The notes below the pieces were generated by a model that saw nothing but the letters and a program-made list of their open reading frames with translations, had not been told where the DNA came from and made no database searches. Positions 1,610 to 52,665 of a stretch of 64,000 nt of DNA are shown here, piece by piece. The stretch is from Methanosarcina barkeri str. Wiesmoor (GTDB taxonomy: Archaea; Halobacteriota; Methanosarcinia; Methanosarcinales; Methanosarcinaceae). The stretch lies in NCBI RefSeq assembly GCF_000969985.1, contig NZ_CP009526.1, positions 4,154,001 through 4,218,000 of the forward strand. The letters run 5' to 3'. Within the stretch, counting starts at the first letter, position 1. Every line of letters begins with the position of its first letter. Made by a program: the position numbers and the translations under genes.

Positions 1610-1801
1610 GGGGCTGTGGCCTAGCCCGGCATGGCGATGGGCTCCAGCGGATAAATGATGAACAACGGGTATACTGAATCTTTCCCGACGGGGCAAGATA
1701 ATGAGGAACCGTTGGAGCACTGATAGATGCTCACCAGAAAACTGTATAAGCAGTTGTTCGGAGATACCCGTCGATCGTGAGTTCGAATCTCACCAGCCCC
1801 A
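1610..1801 (+). tRNA. tRNA-Trp (CCA) with a 118-nt intron
   Basis: The acceptor arms GGGGCTG (1610-1616) and CAGCCCC (1794-1800) pair perfectly and A73 is at 1801; the CCA tail is not encoded. The D arm GCC...GGC and a TTCGAAT T loop are present. The anticodon stem ATGGG pairs with CCCGT, giving a loop with anticodon CCA at 1644-1646. The exons are interrupted after G37 (1647), and the second exon resumes at A38 (1766). The intron boundary follows from restoring a 7-nt loop; the bulge-helix-bulge was not modelled in detail. Intron-bearing tRNA-Trp is the norm in Euryarchaeota. Confidence 0.93.
1648..1765 (+). ncRNA. Box C/D guide RNA inside the tRNA-Trp intron
   Basis: The intron holds box C ATGATGA (1655-1661), box D' CTGA (1674-1677), a C'-like ATGAGGA (1701-1707) and box D CTGA (1720-1723). 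The guide before box D pairs with the anticodon loop, and by the N+5 rule points at C34. The guide before D' pairs with ATACCCGT at the exon 2 junction and points at C39. This matches the known scheme in Haloferax, where the intron directs 2'-O-methylation of positions 34 and 39 of its own tRNA. About 40 nt after box D have no assigned role. Confidence 0.85.
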
Positions 1802-2990: not shown

Positions 2991-3171
2991 AACTCAATTA
3001 TTAACCTAACTCAATTATTAACCTAACTCAATTATTAACCTAACTCAATTATTAACCTAACTCAATTATTAACCTAACTCAATTATTAACCTAACCAAAT
3101 AATTAACCTAACTTAATTATTAACCTAACTTAATTATTAACCTAACTCAATTATTAACCTAACTTAGTTAT
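2991..3171. repeat. 17-bp minisatellite, ten copies plus a partial
   Basis: The unit AACTCAATTATTAACCT is repeated head to tail ten times, with C/T changes at one position, one copy diverged to AACCAAATAATTAACCT, and a degenerate eleventh copy. The array runs into the last codons of the aminotransferase gene, whose stop is at 3168. There are no unique spacers, so it is not CRISPR. Confidence 0.95.
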
Positions 3172-5628: not shown

Positions 5629-5784
5629 ATATTATTAGACGGTAAAGTAGAAATAGCCACGCAGAACCAATAACGGAAGAAGGTGAGGAAGTTGACGGCT
5701 CTCATCCCTCCCTGTCCGATCCGGAAAACCGGATCTACCGAGGAAGGGTCTTCTCGCCTTCAGAAGATAAATATTAGGTACTGC

Positions 5785-5906
5785 AAGCCTTTTCAAAAAA
5801 GGCTTGACCGAAAACTCCAGCAACAATATGGTCGGCTTGATCACAACCCTTTTGAAAAAAGGCTTGACCGAAAACTCCAGCAACAATATGGTCGACATGA
5901 TCAAAC
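5785..5906. repeat. Two tandem 60-bp copies of a palindromic intergenic repeat
   Basis: The two copies are 60 bp apart and nearly identical. Each begins with CCTTTT(C/G)AAAAAAGG, a short palindrome, followed by CTTGACCGAAAACTCCAGC. The same palindrome-plus-GACCGAAAA core recurs near 38711-38870 and 46104-46245, so this looks like a dispersed REP-like family. Confidence 0.8.
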
Positions 5907-15279: not shown

Positions 15280-15329
15280 TTTAAGAGAACTGACTAAAAA
15301 TAGACTATTTTTACTTAGCGAAGATAAGA

Positions 15330-15450
15330 TAAAAAGTGTTGGTAAGAAGAAAAGTGTTGGTAAGAGAAAAAGTGTTGGTAAGAAGAAAAGTGTTGGTAAG
15401 AAAAAAGTTTTGGTAAGAATAAAGTTTTGGTAAGAAAAAAGTTTTCCAAA
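15330..15450. repeat. AG-rich minisatellite, units of 18-19 bp
   Basis: Copies of AGTGTTGGTAAGA(A/G)(G/A)AAA, later AGTTTTGGTAAGAA(A/T)AA, follow each other about six times between the HNH relic and the histidine kinase. A 60-codon frame read from it on the minus strand (SYQHF repeats) is an artefact. Confidence 0.85.
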
Positions 15451-15496
15451 ACTGAAAGTCCAGGAAGGACAGATATTTTGAAATTATAAGGCTTCA

Positions 15497-29465: not shown

Positions 29466-29489
29466 AGTGGGTACTGTCAAAGTCAGGTT

Positions 29490-29614
29490 AAGATGAAAAA
29501 ATTAAGATGAAAAAATTAAGATGAAAAAATTAAGATGAAAAAATTAAGATGAAAAAATTAAGATGAAAAAATTAAGATGAAAAAATTAAGATGAAAAAAT
29601 TAAGATGAAAAAAG
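29490..29614. repeat. 14-bp minisatellite, nine copies
   Basis: AAGATGAAAAAATT is repeated nine times almost without change between the IS256 relic and the 3' end of ribB. Its uniformity suggests recent expansion by slippage. Confidence 0.95.
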
Positions 29615-37395: not shown

Positions 37396-37450
37396 GTTCT
37401 ATTGGAACGCTCGGATTTCTTGTGCAGATTTCTTTCCTGAGCTGGCGACT

Positions 37451-37580
37451 TTCGTTTACTTTCACTCACCTTTGTTTACTTTCACTCACCTTTGTTTACT
37501 TTCACTCACCTTTGTTTATTTTCACCAACTTTTGTTTACTTTCACCAACTTTTGTTTACTTTCACTTACCTTCACTTATC
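37451..37580. repeat. 21-bp minisatellite, about six copies
   Basis: The phrase TTTGTTTACTTTCAC plus (T/C)(C/A)A(C/A)C(T) recurs with 21-bp spacing between the nuclease gene and hisF. The last copies are diverged (CACTTACCTTCACTTATC). Confidence 0.9.
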
Positions 37581-37779: not shown

Positions 37780-38601
37780 ATGCTCACCAAAAGAATAATA
37801 CCATGCCTTGATGTGACCCTTGACAGAGCAGGTGGCTGTGTTGTTAAGGGTGTTGAGTTTGTGGACCTGAAAGAAGCCGGAGACCCTGTGGAACTTGCCA
37901 AGCGCTATAATGAAGAGGGCGCAGACGAACTTGTTTTTCTGGACATTACAGCTTCGGCTCAAGGCAGGAAAACTATGATCGATGTGATCGAAAGGACTGC
38001 GGATGAGGTTTTCATTCCTCTTACGATTGGAGGAGGAATAAATTCCATTGATGCAATTCGTCAGATTCTCCGAGCTGGGGCAGATAAGGTCTCAGTTAAC
38101 ACCTCTGCTGTCAAGAATCCTGACTTTATCAAAGAGTCCTCAGATATATTTGGAGCCCAGTGTATCGTCACTGCGATTGACTGCAGGCGAAACACTGACA
38201 TAAAGAATAATCCCGACAAAACTATTCTGGAGCTTGAAGACGGAACACCTGCCTGGTATGAGGTTGTAATTTACGGAGGCAGAGAGGCTACAGGAATCGA
38301 TGCCGTGCAGTGGGCAAGAAAAGCAGAAGAATTGGGTTCCGGAGAAATCCTGCTCACAAGCATGGACCGGGATGGCACGTGTGCCGGTTATGACCTGCCA
38401 ATTACGAAAAAGCTCTCTGAAGAGCTCGATATCCCGATAATAGCTTCAGGAGGTGTCGGAAACCCTCAGCACATTTACGAAGGATTTTCAATTGGAAAAG
38501 CCGATGCTGCACTTGCAGCAAGTATCTTCCACTTCAGAGAGTACTCAATTAAGGAAGTCAAAGAATACCTTAGAGACCGGGAAATCCCTGTAAGGCTTTA
38601 A
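37780..38601 (+). CDS. hisF: Imidazole glycerol phosphate synthase cyclase subunit
   Basis: 273 residues. A TIM barrel that joins PRFAR and ammonia from HisH to form imidazole glycerol phosphate and AICAR in histidine synthesis. Catalytic Asp11 ([12 protein letters not shown]) and Asp134 (VTAIDCRRN) are both in place. Phosphate loops IGGGINS and [10 protein letters not shown] are also clear. It begins at the conserved [12 protein letters not shown]. It is not beside other his genes here. A MazG-like relic follows immediately. Confidence 0.97.
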
Positions 38602-38643: not shown

Positions 38644-39132
38644 ATTGATATCTCCGAATTCCAGGAACTGATGTCCAAGCTGTATGCGCATAATGACATC
38701 AATCACCTTTTTTCGGTCAAGCCTTTTAAAAGGGTTGATGTCCAAGCTGTATGCGCATAATGACATCAATCGCCTTTTTTCGGTCAAGCCTTTTAAAAGG
38801 GTTGATGTCCAAGCTGTATGCGCATAATGACATCAATCGCCTTTTTTCGGTCAAGCCTTTTAAAAGGGTTGATGTCCAAGCCGTATGCGCATAATGACAG
38901 GAAGAGAGGAGGTAAGGCTACCGTGCTCTGGCTGGTTGAGGAAACTGGAGAACTTGCCGAAGACATTCGCAGGGAAGAGCCCGAAAATATAGAAGAGGAA
39001 CTTGCAGATTGCTTCGCCTGGATAGGGGACCTTCCCAATCTTTACGGCGTGAACCTCTAAGACGCCTTCCTTAAGAAGTACCCTGGTATATGCCCTACCT
39101 GCAAACAGAAGCCCTGTATCTGTACAGACTAA
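38644..39132 (+). pseudogene. MazG-like pyrophosphohydrolase gene split by tandem 67-bp repeats
   Basis: The start reads DISEFQELMSKLYAHND; after the repeat array the gene goes on as HNDRKRGGKATVLWLVEETG and ELAEDIRREEPENIEEELAD. This is the MazG fold with its ExxE...ExxD metal site. Then CFAWIGDLPNLYGVNL is followed by an in-frame TAA, and DAFLKKYPGICPTCKQKPCI completes the protein. Removing three 67-bp units (201 bp) rebuilds one smooth frame. It is broken by both the array and the nonsense codon. The only start near the ribosome site is ATT at 38644. Confidence 0.8.
38670..38900. repeat. 67-bp tandem repeat inside the MazG-like gene
   Basis: Three full copies start at 38670, 38737 and 38804, and a 30-bp fourth part starts at 38871. 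Each contains 30 bp of the host gene (GATGTCCAAGC(T/C)GTATGCGC...) and 37 bp of foreign sequence with CGGTCAAGCCTTTTAAAAGG, the same REP-like palindrome as at 5785 and 46104. Confidence 0.95.
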
Positions 39133-39958: not shown

Positions 39959-42619
39959 ATGAAGCCTGAAAAACCGGAACTGCTTGCCCCGGCAGGAGGC
40001 CTGGAAGCTTTTATTGCAGCCGTAGAAAATGGGGCAGATGCCGTGTACCTCGGAGCTCGGGCTTTCAGTGCTCGGGGGTATGCCTCAAACTTTTCAGAGA
40101 AAGAGCTTGAAGAAGCCGTCGATTATGCTCACCTGAGAGGCGTGAAAGTATATGTAACCGTAAATACGCTACTCAAGGACGAAGAAGTAGAAAATGCCCT
40201 CAAGTTGCTTTCCTGGCTGAGAGAAATTGGAACTGACGCAATCATAATTCAGGATCTAGGGCTTATCTCTCTTGCAAGAAAATATCTGCCTGACCTTTCA
40301 CTGCATGCGAGCACGCAAATGACTTTGCATAATAGCGAAGGGGTTGAATTCGCAAAAAAAATGGGAATAGAGAGGGCTGTGCTCTCAAGGGAATGCTCGC
40401 TTGAAGAGATAAAACGAATTAAAGAGAAAACAGAGACTGAAATCGAGGTTTTCATACATGGGGCTCTCTGTATATCCTATTCTGGCCAGTGCCTTTTGAG
40501 CAGTCTTATAGGGGGAAGAAGCGGAAACCGTGGTTTCTGTGCCCAGCCGTGCCGTAAAAAATACAGGCTGTACTGCGAAGGGAAACAAATCAAAACAACA
40601 GGCAGTTACCTCTTAAGCCCGAAAGACCTTAACACGACTGCAGGCCTTGGAGCCCTTATAAAAACCGGGATTGAATCTTTCAAAATTGAAGGCCGGATGA
40701 AAAGGCCGGAATATGTTGCAGGTGTTGTCAGGATTTACCGCCATCTGATTGACAGGTATATTGAAAACCCTGCAGAATATTTCGTTTCCGAAGAAGAGCA
40801 GGAAATACTTACCCAGCTTTTTAACAGGGGTTTTACTCAGGGTTACTTTTTTGAAAACCCGCGCTGGGAGCTCATGAACAGGGAAAACCCCCACAACCGT
40901 GGAGTTCTGGCAGGTACGGTTACCGGGTATGACAGGCGTTTAAACCGTATCCGCGTGAAACTTTCCCGGCCTCTTCGTCTCGGAGACGGGATAATGGTTG
41001 AAAATGCAGAAACCAGGTCAGAAGATAAAGGAAAAATCGTATCCTCAATGTATACCGGAAAAGGTCCAGTATACAGTGCAAGAGTAGGAGATACGGTAGA
41101 AATTCCTTTCGATTCAAGGGCACCCTCAGGAAGCACAGTATACAGGACGCATGACAAAAAGCTTATGGATTCCCTTAAAAAAGAAAGTGAGTCAGGAAGC
41201 CTGAGGCCTAAAATCCCTGTGTCTATTACGGCAATCATTGAGTCTGGAAGACCTGTCAGGCTTGAGGTAAAAGACAGGGATTCAAATACAGTAATAGTTG
41301 AGTCCGGGTATCTTGTCGAGAAAGCCGAAAAGCAGCCAACTTCAAAGGCCCGTATCGAAAAACAACTTTCAAAACTCGGAAACACGATTTTTGAGGCTGC
41401 TGAATTTTATGTCAAAATGGAAGAAGATGTTTTTATTCCTGTAGGGCAGTTGAATGAGCTGAGGACAAAAGCAATAGAGCAGCTTGAAAATCTGCGGATT
41501 TCCAGGTGGAAGCGGAAACCTCTTGATATTCTACAGTTCTACGACTCTGGAGAAAAGGGATCCAAAGAGAAGGAATCCGTAGAAAAAGAATTCGTAGAAA
41601 AGGAATCTGTAGGAAAGGAATCTGTAGGAAAGAAATTCGTAGAAAAAGAATCCATAGGAAAAGAATCCGTAGAAAAGGTGGGACAGGAAGCCAAAAAAAC
41701 TATTCAAGAGCGCCTTTCTACATATCCATTGCTCTCAGTTTCCGTGTATTCCCTTGAAGGGCTCGAAGGAGCACTCGCAGGTGGAGCCGATAGGATTTAT
41801 TTCGGCGAAGGGCTTTTTAGAAAGCCGAAAAAAACAGAGCAAGAAAATGGATCGGCAAAGGGACCTGACGCAGTTTTTGAGAAAGCAGTATTGGAGACTC
41901 AAAAGGCAGGCAAGAATATCTATTTCATTACTCCAAAGCTTGTTAAAGACTCCAGAATGGAGTCCGTAGAAAAAATTATCTCTCGTGTAAGGAAACTGGG
42001 AGCTGACGGGGTCCTTGTTTCAAATCTGGGAACCCTTGGCCTCGCAAAAACTGAGAAAATCCCTTTTATTGCAGACAGTCCTCTTAACATCTTCAACAGC
42101 CGCACTTTTGACTTTATATTGAAGGAAGGGGCTCAGATGGCTGTAATTTCTCCGGAGCTGACCCTTGAGGAATTAAAAAGCATTGCGTCTCATGGGCCTG
42201 CAGAGTGTATTATTTACGGCAGGCTTGAACTGATGGAGTCCGAACACTGCCTTATAGGCGGGCTGCTCGGGAACAATAAAGGTCAATGTAGTGCCCCATG
42301 CAGGTCAGGAAAGTTTACACTGGTAGATGAGAAAAACTACGAATTTCCCCTGCTCATGGACTATGAATGCAGGATGCACCTCCTTAACTCAAGATCGCTC
42401 TGCATGCTTGAATACCTCCCTGAAATCCTCGAAAGCGGGGTTTCAAGCCTCAGGGTCGAAACTCTGGGAATGGATAATCCAGAAGAGATCCGAAAAGTGA
42501 CCCGAGCCTACAGGAGAGCAATTGATACTTACCTTGAAACCGGGAAAAAGGGGCAGGAAAACTGCGAAAAGCTTGGAAAAGGCTTTACTACAGGACATTA
42601 TTTCAGAGGTGTGCAGTAA
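39959..42619 (+). CDS. Large U32-family peptidase/tRNA-rRNA modification-type protein
   Basis: 886 residues. The N-terminal half is a full U32 domain: PELLAPAGGLEAFIAAVENG, VYLGARAFSARGYASNFSEK, ALCISYSGQCLLSSLIGGRS and GNRGFCAQPCRKKY, whose cysteines may hold an iron-sulphur cluster. A beta-rich DUF3656-like part follows (to about 530). A low-complexity linker encoded by 15-bp repeats (KESVEKE units, 41570-41690) joins a second, shorter U32-like half (GALAGGADRIYFGEGLF; CIIYGRLELMESEHCLIGGL; CSAPCRSGKF). U32 proteins such as TrhP and RlhA hydroxylate RNA bases; others are listed as collagenases. The reaction here is unknown. Confidence 0.88.
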   Translation: MKPEKPELLAPAGGLEAFIAAVENGADAVYLGARAFSARGYASNFSEKELEEAVDYAHLRGVKVYVTVNTLLKDEEVENALKLLSWLREIGTDAIIIQDLGLISLARKYLPDLSLHASTQMTLHNSEGVEFAKKMGIERAVLSRECSLEEIKRIKEKTETEIEVFIHGALCISYSGQCLLSSLIGGRSGNRGFCAQPCRKKYRLYCEGKQIKTTGSYLLSPKDLNTTAGLGALIKTGIESFKIEGRMKRPEYVAGVVRIYRHLIDRYIENPAEYFVSEEEQEILTQLFNRGFTQGYFFENPRWELMNRENPHNRGVLAGTVTGYDRRLNRIRVKLSRPLRLGDGIMVENAETRSEDKGKIVSSMYTGKGPVYSARVGDTVEIPFDSRAPSGSTVYRTHDKKLMDSLKKESESGSLRPKIPVSITAIIESGRPVRLEVKDRDSNTVIVESGYLVEKAEKQPTSKARIEKQLSKLGNTIFEAAEFYVKMEEDVFIPVGQLNELRTKAIEQLENLRISRWKRKPLDILQFYDSGEKGSKEKESVEKEFVEKESVGKESVGKKFVEKESIGKESVEKVGQEAKKTIQERLSTYPLLSVSVYSLEGLEGALAGGADRIYFGEGLFRKPKKTEQENGSAKGPDAVFEKAVLETQKAGKNIYFITPKLVKDSRMESVEKIISRVRKLGADGVLVSNLGTLGLAKTEKIPFIADSPLNIFNSRTFDFILKEGAQMAVISPELTLEELKSIASHGPAECIIYGRLELMESEHCLIGGLLGNNKGQCSAPCRSGKFTLVDEKNYEFPLLMDYECRMHLLNSRSLCMLEYLPEILESGVSSLRVETLGMDNPEEIRKVTRAYRRAIDTYLETGKKGQENCEKLGKGFTTGHYFRGVQ

Positions 42620-44475: not shown

Positions 44476-46089
44476 TTATGCCTGTTTTTCGGGGCTGTAG
44501 TTTGAGGCTTCTTCAAACCTTTCTACCAGAAATTCCTTATCAAACGAAGATAAGAACCATCCGGCTTTAGGGCCTGACTTCTGCCCGAGTAATGAAAAAT
44601 AAATAGCCTTGAAAAGCTCCCTGGGATCCACTTGAGGAGCATGAGTGTTCAGCTTTTCTGCAATCTTTCTGTTCAGTTCGGAACCCTCATCCTTTGCAGA
44701 ATAGACCAGCATATGGTATTCTTCTCCACTAATTTCGCCTCTGGATTCAATAAGGGCTGCAAAGGCTGAAAGAAAGGCTCTCTGAAGTTCTGATAGGGTT
44801 GCTGCCTGTACAGGCACTTTTTCTTTCACTTTAAACTTGGCAAAGGGCGGAGCATAGAGTTTTAGCCATTTAGATACGTTATCTGCCAGTTCTTTTATAC
44901 ACTTTTTATCTTCAGTTGAAAAACCTGAACGTTTTACGATTTTCAGTATTTGGGCAAAATCTCCCCTTGCTACCTGATATATAGTCACCATCTGCTTGAA
45001 GGGAATTTCAGACTGGCAGATCCCGGTTGCCCTGGAAAGTTCATACACTCTTTTCTGAAAAGTCCCAAGTGAAGGATCATTTTCCCTGAACTGCGTCCTT
45101 AGTCGTTCGTATTCGTCCACAAGGGTGAGGAGAGGCTGTCCAGGGTCGAACTGAATGTGTTTTTCAGGTTTTGTGCGGATGATCAGGTAGCGAAGAACCT
45201 CGGGTGGTATGATTTCCAGCATGTCCGAAATCGAGATAACGACTCCTGTAGAAGAAGACATTGCACCCTGCTTTCCGAGCATTATCCACTCATAGACAAT
45301 TGGGTATGGCGGTTCGTGCCCGAAAATTTCTCTTACTATTCTCTTTCCGGTATCGTAAGAACCGCCTTTTGAAGCATGGTCTTTTCCGAAAGGTTCGACA
45401 GTCACCCCTAAAACTGACCAGCGGGCAGGCCAGTCAACACGCCAGGTAAGTTTTCCTCCTCCTGCCATGGGTACGATTCCGGAGTGACCACATGCACAGA
45501 CATAGTCCACGGTTTCAGCTTCCAGATCAAAACCCGTTACCTTCGTTGTTGTGATCTTTCCGCATTGATTGCATCTGGGATTGAAAGGGCTCCAATCCGC
45601 GGCTACAGTTTTTCCCGATACTTCTTCCAGGATTTTTGCAATAGCATCTCTTTTAACAAGGGCGGTTTTTATTGCTTCGGTGTATTTACCTGTCTTATAC
45701 ATCTCGTCTGCCCTGTAAACCTGAGGGTTAATGCCAAGTCGCCTGAGGGCTTCCAGGAAAGGTTTCAAGAAATGCTCGGCATAGTTTGCGCAGTTTCCAC
45801 AGGGGCAGGGAATTTCGGAGATGGGCTTTCCCACATGTTCGACGTAACTTTCGGGAAGGAATGGGTAAACCTTGCGCAGGGGATCATAATTGTCAGCAAT
45901 ATAGATAAAGTCAGCATTCGCTCCTTTATTACTCAGAGCCCTATAAACAGCATCGGCAGTTACGACTTCTCTCATGTTGCCTATATGGATGTTCCCCGAC
46001 GGAGTGATACCTGTGGCAACAAGATGTTTGCCGCTTTTTTTTAACACGTCTTCGGCTATGACGTCTGCCCAGTGAATTGTGTCAGCCAT
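44476..46089 (-). CDS. lysS: Class I lysyl-tRNA synthetase
   Basis: 537 residues. It charges tRNA-Lys with lysine in the archaeal class I manner. The HIGH-like [16 protein letters not shown], two zinc-type clusters ([15 protein letters not shown]...CACGHSG) and the KMSKS-like GAMSSSTG are visible, together with the alpha-helix cage IHFDPGQ-type ([11 protein letters not shown]). The ATG at 46089 ([10 protein letters not shown]) is chosen; the frame extends 18 nt upstream. Methanosarcina has both class I and class II LysRS. The region upstream is filled with palindromic repeats. Confidence 0.95.
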
Positions 46090-46103: not shown

Positions 46104-46245
46104 TCAAGCTTTTTCAAAAAAGCTTGAACGCAAACCTTTTCAAAAAACTGTTTGATCGCAAGCCTTTTTAAAAAAAGGCTTGAGCGAAAACCGTTGGAAA
46201 ATTATTTAATTCCTGATAATTATTGCAAGCCTTTTCAAAAAAGGT
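46104..46245. repeat. Cluster of REP-like palindromes upstream of lysS
   Basis: Four palindromic units in 140 bp: CAAGCTTTTTCAAAAAAGCTTG, CAAACCTTTTCAAAAAACTG, CAAGCCTTTTTAAAAAAAGG and CAAGCCTTTTCAAAAAAGG. Each is followed by (A/G)(A/G)CGC/GCGAAAA-like words. They can fold into hairpins on either strand and belong to the same family as those at 5785 and 38711. Confidence 0.85.
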
Positions 46246-46261
46246 GAGCGAAAAACTTTGA

Positions 46262-47099: not shown

Positions 47100-48503
47100 T
47101 TAAGCGATCTGCTTTCTGAAGAGGTTGCAAGAATTAATCTTAATATCGAGCAACTTTTCGATGTTCATCTTTGCAGCAATACCTTTTGCAGCGCCTGGTA
47201 CCGACGTTATAATACCAATATCGAGTTCTTCACGCAGCTCGCGCATAACGTGCTCGTCTACGAGGTCCATCTGGTCGACACCAAGTTTCTTTGCGACATA
47301 CTCTTTTGCTTCACCTATGCGCATATTCTTTGAGAACTCCATTCTTGCAACAAGGTCTCCTGCAGCTCTCATTCCTGTCATACCTGAAGCCATTATGTGT
47401 GCGATCGGCATACCCATTGGGTCGCCGACCCCGATCTATATGCCGTCTACGCCCGCAATTTCTACCATTGCTTTGCTTGCCCTTGTGACTGCATCAATAG
47501 GAGGCGTTTCAAGCATCGGTATTCCGCCAACTCCCATTCCCATGTCAACGTGACAGGGTATTGGAGATGCTTCGACGGCTGCCTTCATGAAAGTAACTGC
47601 ACGGGCAAGGTTCCATGCCGAGGTTTTGCTGGTATTGGTGTTGCATACTGGTCCGAAAACATTTGCTCCGGCTTTTGCAACAAGTGGGGCCTGCTGGTGA
47701 GGCCAGAGTCCTGCAAGGGTTACGCCGTCATACTGAAGGTTTCCGTGCATACCAAGTACGCATTCCCCGGCCATTCCTGCTTCAATATACATATCAGGGA
47801 ACTCTTTTCTGAGGGCTTCAATCGCATGGAGTGTACCATACATGTCACCGTCGCCTGCTGCACCGGTTGTGTCAAAGTTGACACCATCAGCACCAGAGGC
47901 AAAGAGTTTCTGCATTACCCAAACTGTGTCTCTTGTCAAGTGTTCTGCAGCGTGTTCCATTGATTCCCAGGCTTCTGGGATCTTGAAAGCCTTCATGAGG
48001 TCGCCAGGGTTCTCAAAGGGACCATCTGGTGTATAGTAAAGCCCCATATTGGGCATTGCACCGTAAAACAGTGGAATAATCATGTTCTGTTGGCAGACTT
48101 CCATTGCCTGGCACTCGTTTGATACGACAGGTTTTACAGGCTTGAAACTGTAATCAATGTGCCCGAGTTCCATTGTGTCAGCACCAAAAGCCCTCTCATG
48201 CGTCATGCAGCCAACTAAACGGCTGGAAGGAATACCAACACCACTGTTTCCCTGGTCCCCATCAAGCCTGATAGTGCCGATATCGTGTGTTACAGGAACT
48301 TCCATACCCTGTTCGACACTAACGGTCTTGCCAGGCATCATAAGGATCTCTGCAAGCTTCTCCATTTCATTGGCGTTCAGAGCAGGAATTTCACCAAGGT
48401 CGGCAGCATTTGCAGTTCCGTCTTCGATCTCTGCAATTATCTTTTCTTTGGTAAGGTAGATACGTTTACCGTCTCCCATACGCAAAGCATATTCAGTTGC
48501 CAT
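47100..48503 (-). CDS. mtbB: Dimethylamine methyltransferase MtbB (pyrrolysine protein)
   Basis: 467 residues. It transfers a methyl group from dimethylamine to the Co(I) of the corrinoid protein MtbC. The sequence begins [40 protein letters not shown] and [20 protein letters not shown] are typical. The TAG at 47436-47438 is codon 356, in the known Pyl context VEIAGVDGI[11 protein letters not shown]. The frame continues to [10 protein letters not shown]. It is the last gene of the operon. No other mtb paralogue is present in the window. A BLAST-free but very firm call. Confidence 0.98.
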
Positions 48504-51177: not shown

Positions 51178-52665
51178 TTACATGCCTCTGAAGGCTTTGT
51201 CAGCCTTGTCCACGATTGCCTGCATGTCCTTGAGAATGTCTGCATCGATTGGGGTTACCTGGTGGTTTTTAAGAACGTCCTCTACTTTTTCGTGTGCAAC
51301 TGTTGCAAGGTCTTTTGAGCCTGCTGCAGCCCAGTCTCCAAACATGTGCCTGTCGAGGAGCATTGGGTTGGACGGGTAATCCACAAGCTGCCTGGTCTGT
51401 TTAAGGGCCAGGAAATTGTTTCCGATGCCTACTTTCTGGATAGATTCGACTGCAAGAGTTTCTTCCGAGACAGGAATTCCCTTCATGGCTTTCTTAACCA
51501 TACTGAAGATATCATTGTCAATAACAAGCTGTTCCATTGAGAATGTCATTCCGAGCTCAAGCATTCCAGCTCCGTAGATGGTGTTGGCACCGGAAAGAGC
51601 AGGCAGAAGGGTGGTCATGGTTTTTTCGTGGCCTGCCTGGTCGTCCGGAACCTTGGCATCAGACTAGGAACCTGCCACATAGGAGGGAAGGCCGTAGAAC
51701 TGGGCAAGCTTTGCGACTGCAGCACTGATAAGACCGAGTTCAGGAGATCCTACAGGTGCTGTACCTTTCTTGAGGTCGAAGGTAGTTGTGGAACTTCCGT
51801 ACCAGACCTTAGCTCCAGGTACTGTCAACTGGGCAAGTACGATTCCTGAAAGAACTTCGGCATTGTGGGTTACGAGAGTGCCTGCAAGATATACAGGAGA
51901 AGAACCACCTGACATTGCCATACTCAGGACATTTACAGGAATTCCATAGCGGGCACCCTTGATGATGACCTGACAAGCATTTACACTGAGCTCAAGTGGG
52001 CTGGTAGGGCAGAGCAGCATGGAGAAAATAGGTTTCTTTCTTGCTTCTTCTTCGTCGCCGCCATAGTAAGCCTTTACAATGTCCCGGTAGTACTCGACAT
52101 TTTCGCCAACAGGGTCAATGTGGTGGAAGTGTTTTGCGGTGTTTGCAATAGGGGTAAGTGTTTCGTGGACATCCTGAGCGCCCTGACCTGCAATATCTCT
52201 TGCAGAGACTGGCAGAGAGAAATAGTCAATGTTTTCTGCCCAGTCACAGAGTTTTGCGATGTCTGCAATATCTTTTTCGACGGAGTCGACTGTTACATAC
52301 TTGCCGTCCTGGTACTTGCACATCTTGACACCGGTACCAAAACAGGTCCAGTGAACCTTACCGCCACATTCCTGAACAGTATTGAATTTTTTGTCACGGC
52401 CCCAGAGGATAAATCTGGAGGGAGCAAGCTGAAGAGCTTTTCTTACAAGATATTCAGGGATCTTTACAACGTTGGTCTTTTCATCAACTTCGCAGCCATT
52501 TTCCTTGAAGATCTGCCTTGCCTCTGGGTCAGAAACTTGAATTCCTGGGTCCATCAGAACTTCCATGGTTGCATAGTGAATTGCCTTAAGTTCGTCAGTG
52601 GTAAAAAGGTTTAATTCTACGCCATTAAGTGCATTAAATCCAGCAACTGCATTATTTTTTGCCAT
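51178..52665 (-). CDS. mttB: Trimethylamine methyltransferase MttB (pyrrolysine protein)
   Basis: 495 residues, TIM-barrel methyltransferase that demethylates trimethylamine and methylates MttC. The TAG at 51664-51666 is codon 334 in the known Pyl context (LPSYVAGS[13 protein letters not shown]). N-terminal [20 protein letters not shown] and [20 protein letters not shown] are typical. After the Pyl, [20 protein letters not shown] leads to DKAFRGM. A GGAGGT site lies 7 nt before the ATG. The order mtbC-mttB-mttC is standard. Confidence 0.98.

Follow-up and report, generated by a model that had tools for sequence, protein, structure and literature searches.

Short palindromic repeats present in many copies are known in bacteria as REPs and BIMEs, and the Methanosarcina element described here resembles them in both respects. 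However, it carries neither the GTAG nor the CGTC tag of the bacterial repeats, and neighboring copies follow one another head to tail on a single strand, unlike BIMEs, which alternate in orientation. It is also less abundant, as PMC8266576 gives hundreds to thousands of copies for bacterial REPs, compared with 59 exact copies in the genome analyzed here. The host is an archaeon, and Methanosarcina has zero occurrences in the main text of the bacterial REP/BIME paper used for comparison. A second likeness is to quasi-palindrome mutation, in which, according to PMC8604942, template switching at an imperfect inverted repeat alters several bases at once, so that its arms become identical. The arms of an inverted repeat seem to have been made identical in the present genome as well, as judged from one paired change.

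Methanosarcina has been reported as the archaeal genus richest in tandem repeats, with up to 406 arrays per genome, and the passages of PMC6749651 on these satellites describe neither a unit with a REP-like palindrome nor a gene broken by one. SSO3215-type MazG-like proteins (PDB 1vmg) are related to the intact protein and thus bear on the broken host gene rather than the array. No description of this repeat was found in the Methanosarcina literature covered, which included PMC6749651, PMC3733652, PMC8266576, and PMC8604942 and few subscription papers, and one may already be in print.

The window (the whole stretch of DNA analyzed, 64,000 nucleotides, G000:C2:4154001-4218000) is part of the 4.9-Mb genome of Methanosarcina barkeri str. 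Wiesmoor, hereafter G000. A broken MazG-like gene begins about 40 bp past hisF and is interrupted by a tandem array, as follows:

37780-38601, forward strand: hisF, the upstream neighbor (PF00977, E 5.8e-83)
38644-39132, forward strand: MazG-like pseudogene (PF03819), with ATT for ATG, stops in the array, and an in-frame TAA downstream
38669-38735, forward strand: unit 1, gene piece plus REP-like palindrome (repeat comparison, TRF)
38736-38802, forward strand: unit 2 of the array (repeat comparison, TRF)
38803-38869, forward strand: unit 3 of the array (repeat comparison, TRF)
38870-38903, forward strand: final, native-side 34-bp gene piece, continuous with the remaining gene (junction matches intact relatives)
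38710-38737, forward strand: first REP-like core, TTTTCGGTCAAGCCTTTTAAAAGGGTTG, with further copies at +67 and +134 bp (13-base head, 59 exact genome copies)
38695-38742, forward strand: outer stem, GACATCAA ... TTGATGTC, around the first REP-like core (stem pairing)

The 67-bp unit proposed in the sequence-only reading was recovered as three units at 38669-38899, after which the 30-bp gene piece occurs a fourth time within that interval, and the array therefore holds four gene pieces and three palindromes. The units are 98-99% identical to each other over 97 nt, and the TRF score of the array (448) is the highest among the 31 rows for the window. Folded as single-stranded DNA, the whole array was more stable than all 200 shuffles (z -5.2), which is what any palindrome-bearing tandem array would show. 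A CRISPR array was considered and rejected, as the gene copies are separated by 37-bp pieces that resemble one another rather than by unique spacers, and an Rfam scan of the window returned no family at the array. Elsewhere in the window, a 192-base tRNA match (1610-1801, forward strand) encloses an sR3 C/D-box RNA match (1651-1725), and the intron of this tRNA looks like a guide RNA. Pyrrolysine insertion-sequence matches of the mtbB and mttB types occur on the reverse strand at 47339-47438 and 51567-51666; methylamine methyltransferase genes with an in-frame TAG are therefore probably present there. Short-period tandem arrays with units of 14-45 bp were also seen at 2991-3164, 15325-15459, 29488-29613, 37449-37572, and 41551-41678, the last inside the open frame of a U32-peptidase-like gene (39959-42619).

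The identity of the host gene is supported by PF03819 matches to both the 3' part of the pseudogene (E 2e-10) and an intact relative (E 1.5e-15). The named relatives of the gene likewise place the genome in Methanosarcina. Intact relatives are about 95 codons long, and the closest solved structure to the intact protein is PDB 1vmg (E 9e-21). HisE was rejected as an identity, since the PRA-PH and hisI models match weakly, and no second PF03819 gene was found above the cut-off in G000. Reading in the gene frame through all three units of G000 meets stops within the array and then the downstream TAA, and there is no ATG. Stops inside the units and the TAA had already been taken as signs of present inactivity, to which the lost start codon can now be added. 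G003 lacks the ATG as well, with ATT in both genomes where relatives have ATG. Because this loss is common to both, the gene was most likely dead in the G000/G003 ancestor and the expansion came later in the G000 lineage; the array thus probably expanded within an already dead gene.

It had also been proposed that changes in copy number could switch the reading frame, a phase-variable gene being turned on and off by the number of units. The near-identical tandem units and the combined length of three units (201 bp, a multiple of three) would suit such a switch. However, without an ATG, and with stops in the array and the TAA beyond it, the open frame is not restored even with all three units; moreover, one 67-bp unit is not divisible by three, and the genes of G003 and G012 have decayed too. 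We therefore consider phase variation scarcely credible, and the locus has no present role as a protein-coding switch.

A search with the 3' part of the gene in 30 Methanosarcina genomes gave matches in 22. The gene is uninterrupted, with about 95 codons and no insert, in 18 of the 30 (loci L010-L027), and three genomes (G000, G003, and G012) carry the REP-like insert, all at one site. In the other nine, the gene is partly deleted or absent. G009 has lost the 5' part, and in the remaining eight, where hisF was fetched and the sequence downstream was read by eye, remnants were recognized in G013, G007, G022, and G024, and no recognizable gene was seen in G010, G002, G016, or G015. Since the gene is frequently lost in the genus, its breakage in G000 is not exceptional: the MazG-like gene is dispensable, and the case is a mostly ordinary one of repeat-driven gene decay. 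The insertion reading would have failed if intact genes of relatives already contained the 37-bp segment; it is absent from the intact genes of all 18 genomes.

An intermediate stage is preserved in two genomes. In G003, 34 gene bases (A) are followed by a palindrome segment of about 37 bases (R) and then by a repeat of the 34 bases that continues into the remaining gene, giving a single A-R-A unit; G012 has the same single-unit arrangement, more heavily decayed, and three units occur in G000 only. Together with the 18 empty sites, this one-unit stage bears out the order suggested from G000 alone, namely insertion first, with some 30-34 bp duplicated, and expansion afterward. The duplication length needs correction, as 30 bp describes the piece in G000, whereas the duplicated piece is about 34 bp in G003 and G012, two bases of it being altered in G000. 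The two A copies match at 24 of 34 positions in G003 and 23 of 34 in G012, whereas the first and last copies in G000 match at 31 of 34, as expected for an array homogenized by exchange.

Whether the three genomes owe the insert to one event was considered with two trees. A regional tree (12 reading frames, 14 rows, and 9681 columns, with one stretch counted twice as the frame at 40843-41238 on the reverse strand sits within 39959-42619) placed G000 and G003 as sisters with support of 99/99, G029, which has an intact gene, next to this pair, and G012 elsewhere. A single old insertion, or a transferred broken allele, could underlie all three inserts, with intact genes elsewhere explained by exact loss of the insert between the direct copies or by gene transfer. 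This reading draws on breakpoints that are the same in all three genomes and on a 7-base left junction that is unusual and much alike among them, and the tree of the MazG-like gene itself permits a single clade (p-AU 0.17), although its 252 columns cannot place the insertion alleles. In contrast, the 12-frame tree rejects a clade of G000, G003, and G012 (p-AU 8.7e-5), and under a single insertion the gene would have had to be restored exactly more than once, with no other damage left in it. The broken allele may, even so, have been transferred. A single origin is thus a real but tentative possibility, to which we give less than even weight. It is a statement about how many origins there were and is compatible with either mechanism of insertion. 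The common site of G012 and G000/G003, with their similar left junctions, would point to an allele that was shared or transferred, or else to a hot spot.

The palindrome belongs to a family. Exact copies of the 13-base head (TTTTCGGTCAAGC) number 59 in G000, 39 in G003, 35 in G029, and 27 in G004, degenerate copies being uncounted, and the head is absent from 15 of the 30 genomes. A reversed-pattern control gave 0 or 1 match per genome (1 in G000). The family is concentrated within one subclade. Further members lie within the window:

5784-5903, reverse strand: two-unit tandem of the REP-like element with a 29-bp flank and a 60-bp period (TRF, core search; core copies at 5785-5874)
46111-46192, reverse strand: variant element copies upstream of lysS (TRF, core search)
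44476-46089, reverse strand: lysS, directly downstream of the variant copies

The earlier statement that the same palindrome occurs at 5785 and upstream of lysS is thus upheld for the core, the lysS copies being variants, with variant cores at 46111-46190 and about 46226-46255. Among near-neighbor core pairs (≤250 bp), all 19 in G000 (gaps of 54-236 bp) and all 8 in G003 are on the same strand; therefore, tandem growth of the core plus its flank is a habit of the family, and the locus at 38669-38899 is an instance of it in which the flank is a gene. The core has the size and stem-loop form of a REP (a palindrome of 20-50 nt), and its 59 exact heads in G000 against one control match give it a high copy number, although folding of the 31-nt core into a stem was modest (-6.7 and -5.1 kcal/mol for the two strands, with z about -1.3). 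Eight of the 59 copies fall inside open frames of at least 100 codons, which are open frames and not gene calls.

Among the 59 listed G000 copies, all starting with TTTTCGGTCAAGC, no GTAG or CGTC was commonly adjacent. Counted genome-wide in 12 genomes, Y1 transposase matches swing widely within the genus, with 25 in G000, 79 in G009, which has no core, and none in G029, which has 35 cores. Across these 12 genomes, Y1 transposase numbers do not track repeat numbers. A REP moved by a RAYT (TnpA-REP) was rejected, as Y1 counts are unrelated to cores and the GTAG tag is missing. The name REP that the palindrome was first given is therefore fair only in a loose sense: the resemblance stands, but the GTAG tag is absent and, by these genome counts, no Y1 transposase goes with the repeat.

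These observations also weigh on a broader alternative, in which a transposase or integrase moves the palindrome as a non-autonomous element and duplicates about 34 bp of target at each insertion, with expansion later through recombination. The clean A-R-A structure, the empty sites, and the hit on the same site in two phylogenetically separate lineages would all suit such an element, whereas the missing GTAG/CGTC tag and the unrelated Y1 transposase and repeat numbers do not. The flanks of other copies were compared for 157 core copies (exact and near) at 102 loci in five genomes (G000, G003, G004, G005, and G012), covering 20 G004 loci and 5 of 10 G005 copies, with those of G013, G025, G027, and G029 outside the test. 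Own-flank similarity reached at least 12 in 44 of the 157 copies, compared with 17.5% of mismatched flank pairs, both values being inflated by the family's own modules. Such modules recur next to the core, and for that reason the comparison yields no rule for target duplication in general; most copies lack a clear flanking duplication, and duplicated flank length differs between loci. The suggested search for the 37-bp piece elsewhere with similar 30-bp duplications thus gave no general pattern of this kind. We consider a mobile element unlikely. At one further REP-like tandem (L062, G000:C2:2151100-2152200), the element is bracketed by flank copies in G000, G003, and G029, and it is present without the second flank copy in G004, G025, G027, and G012. 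This suggests that flank duplications may form once the element is already in place, gene conversion being a fair alternative given the loose alignment.

The reading that we favor, with a little better than even confidence, is that template switching at a hairpin, followed by unequal exchange, built the array in a dispensable gene that the A-R-A insertion had killed. In this sequence of events, (i) placement of the REP-like hairpin (R) in the gene would have been accompanied by a repeat of the 34 bp to its left (A), giving A-R-A and killing the gene; (ii) this step would have occurred by template switching of a polymerase at the hairpin-forming repeat rather than through a transposase; and (iii) unequal exchange between the two A copies would later have expanded and homogenized the locus to (A-R)x3-A. 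The junctions are compatible with a template switch. At the right junction, the last bases of the core and the gene have TGAT in common. At the left junction, the seven bases before the core match the opposite strand of the gene at six of seven positions, as do 36 of 20,000 random 7-mers at equal strength; this comparison takes the gene from G017 and the insert from G012, a pairing selected post hoc, and the G003 and G000 versions match less well by eye. In G000, a change of GG to TC in each inner A copy converts GACAGGAA to GACATCAA, which is exactly reverse-complementary to TTGATGTC across the core. The outer stem is perfect only in G000 among the three insert-bearing genomes, the stem around the core pairing at 8 of 8 positions there and at 4 of 8 in G003 and G012. 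A template switch between inverted repeats is expected to leave such a paired change (PMC8604942), and this one may record such an event.

The donor copy of the insertion was not traced: CCTYTTTTCGNTCARGC, with the flank CCTY before the core, has seven matches in 4 of the 30 genomes, four of them at the array locus (three G000 units and one in G012), two in G004, and one in G025. That G012 has its insertion at the identical site is hard to square with an accident of replication striking at random, and an unknown enzyme making a true target-site duplication would yield A-R-A as well. Spacer capture by Cas1-Cas2 has a comparable geometry of insertion and duplication. A dedicated integrase-like activity of this kind, acting off target, might insert 33-37 bp, duplicate 30-37 bp of target, and hit the same position twice in separate lineages; we rate this explanation as very improbable.

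With template switching and unequal exchange as the preferred explanation, the locus neatly illustrates processes that are already known, here in an archaeal genus rich in repeats. A single genus shows the passage of a REP-like repeat from empty site to one-unit insertion with duplication and on to tandem expansion, and the order of decay can be traced, with gene death first and array growth later. Through strain surveys, the locus could serve to gauge the rate of satellite growth in Methanosarcina.
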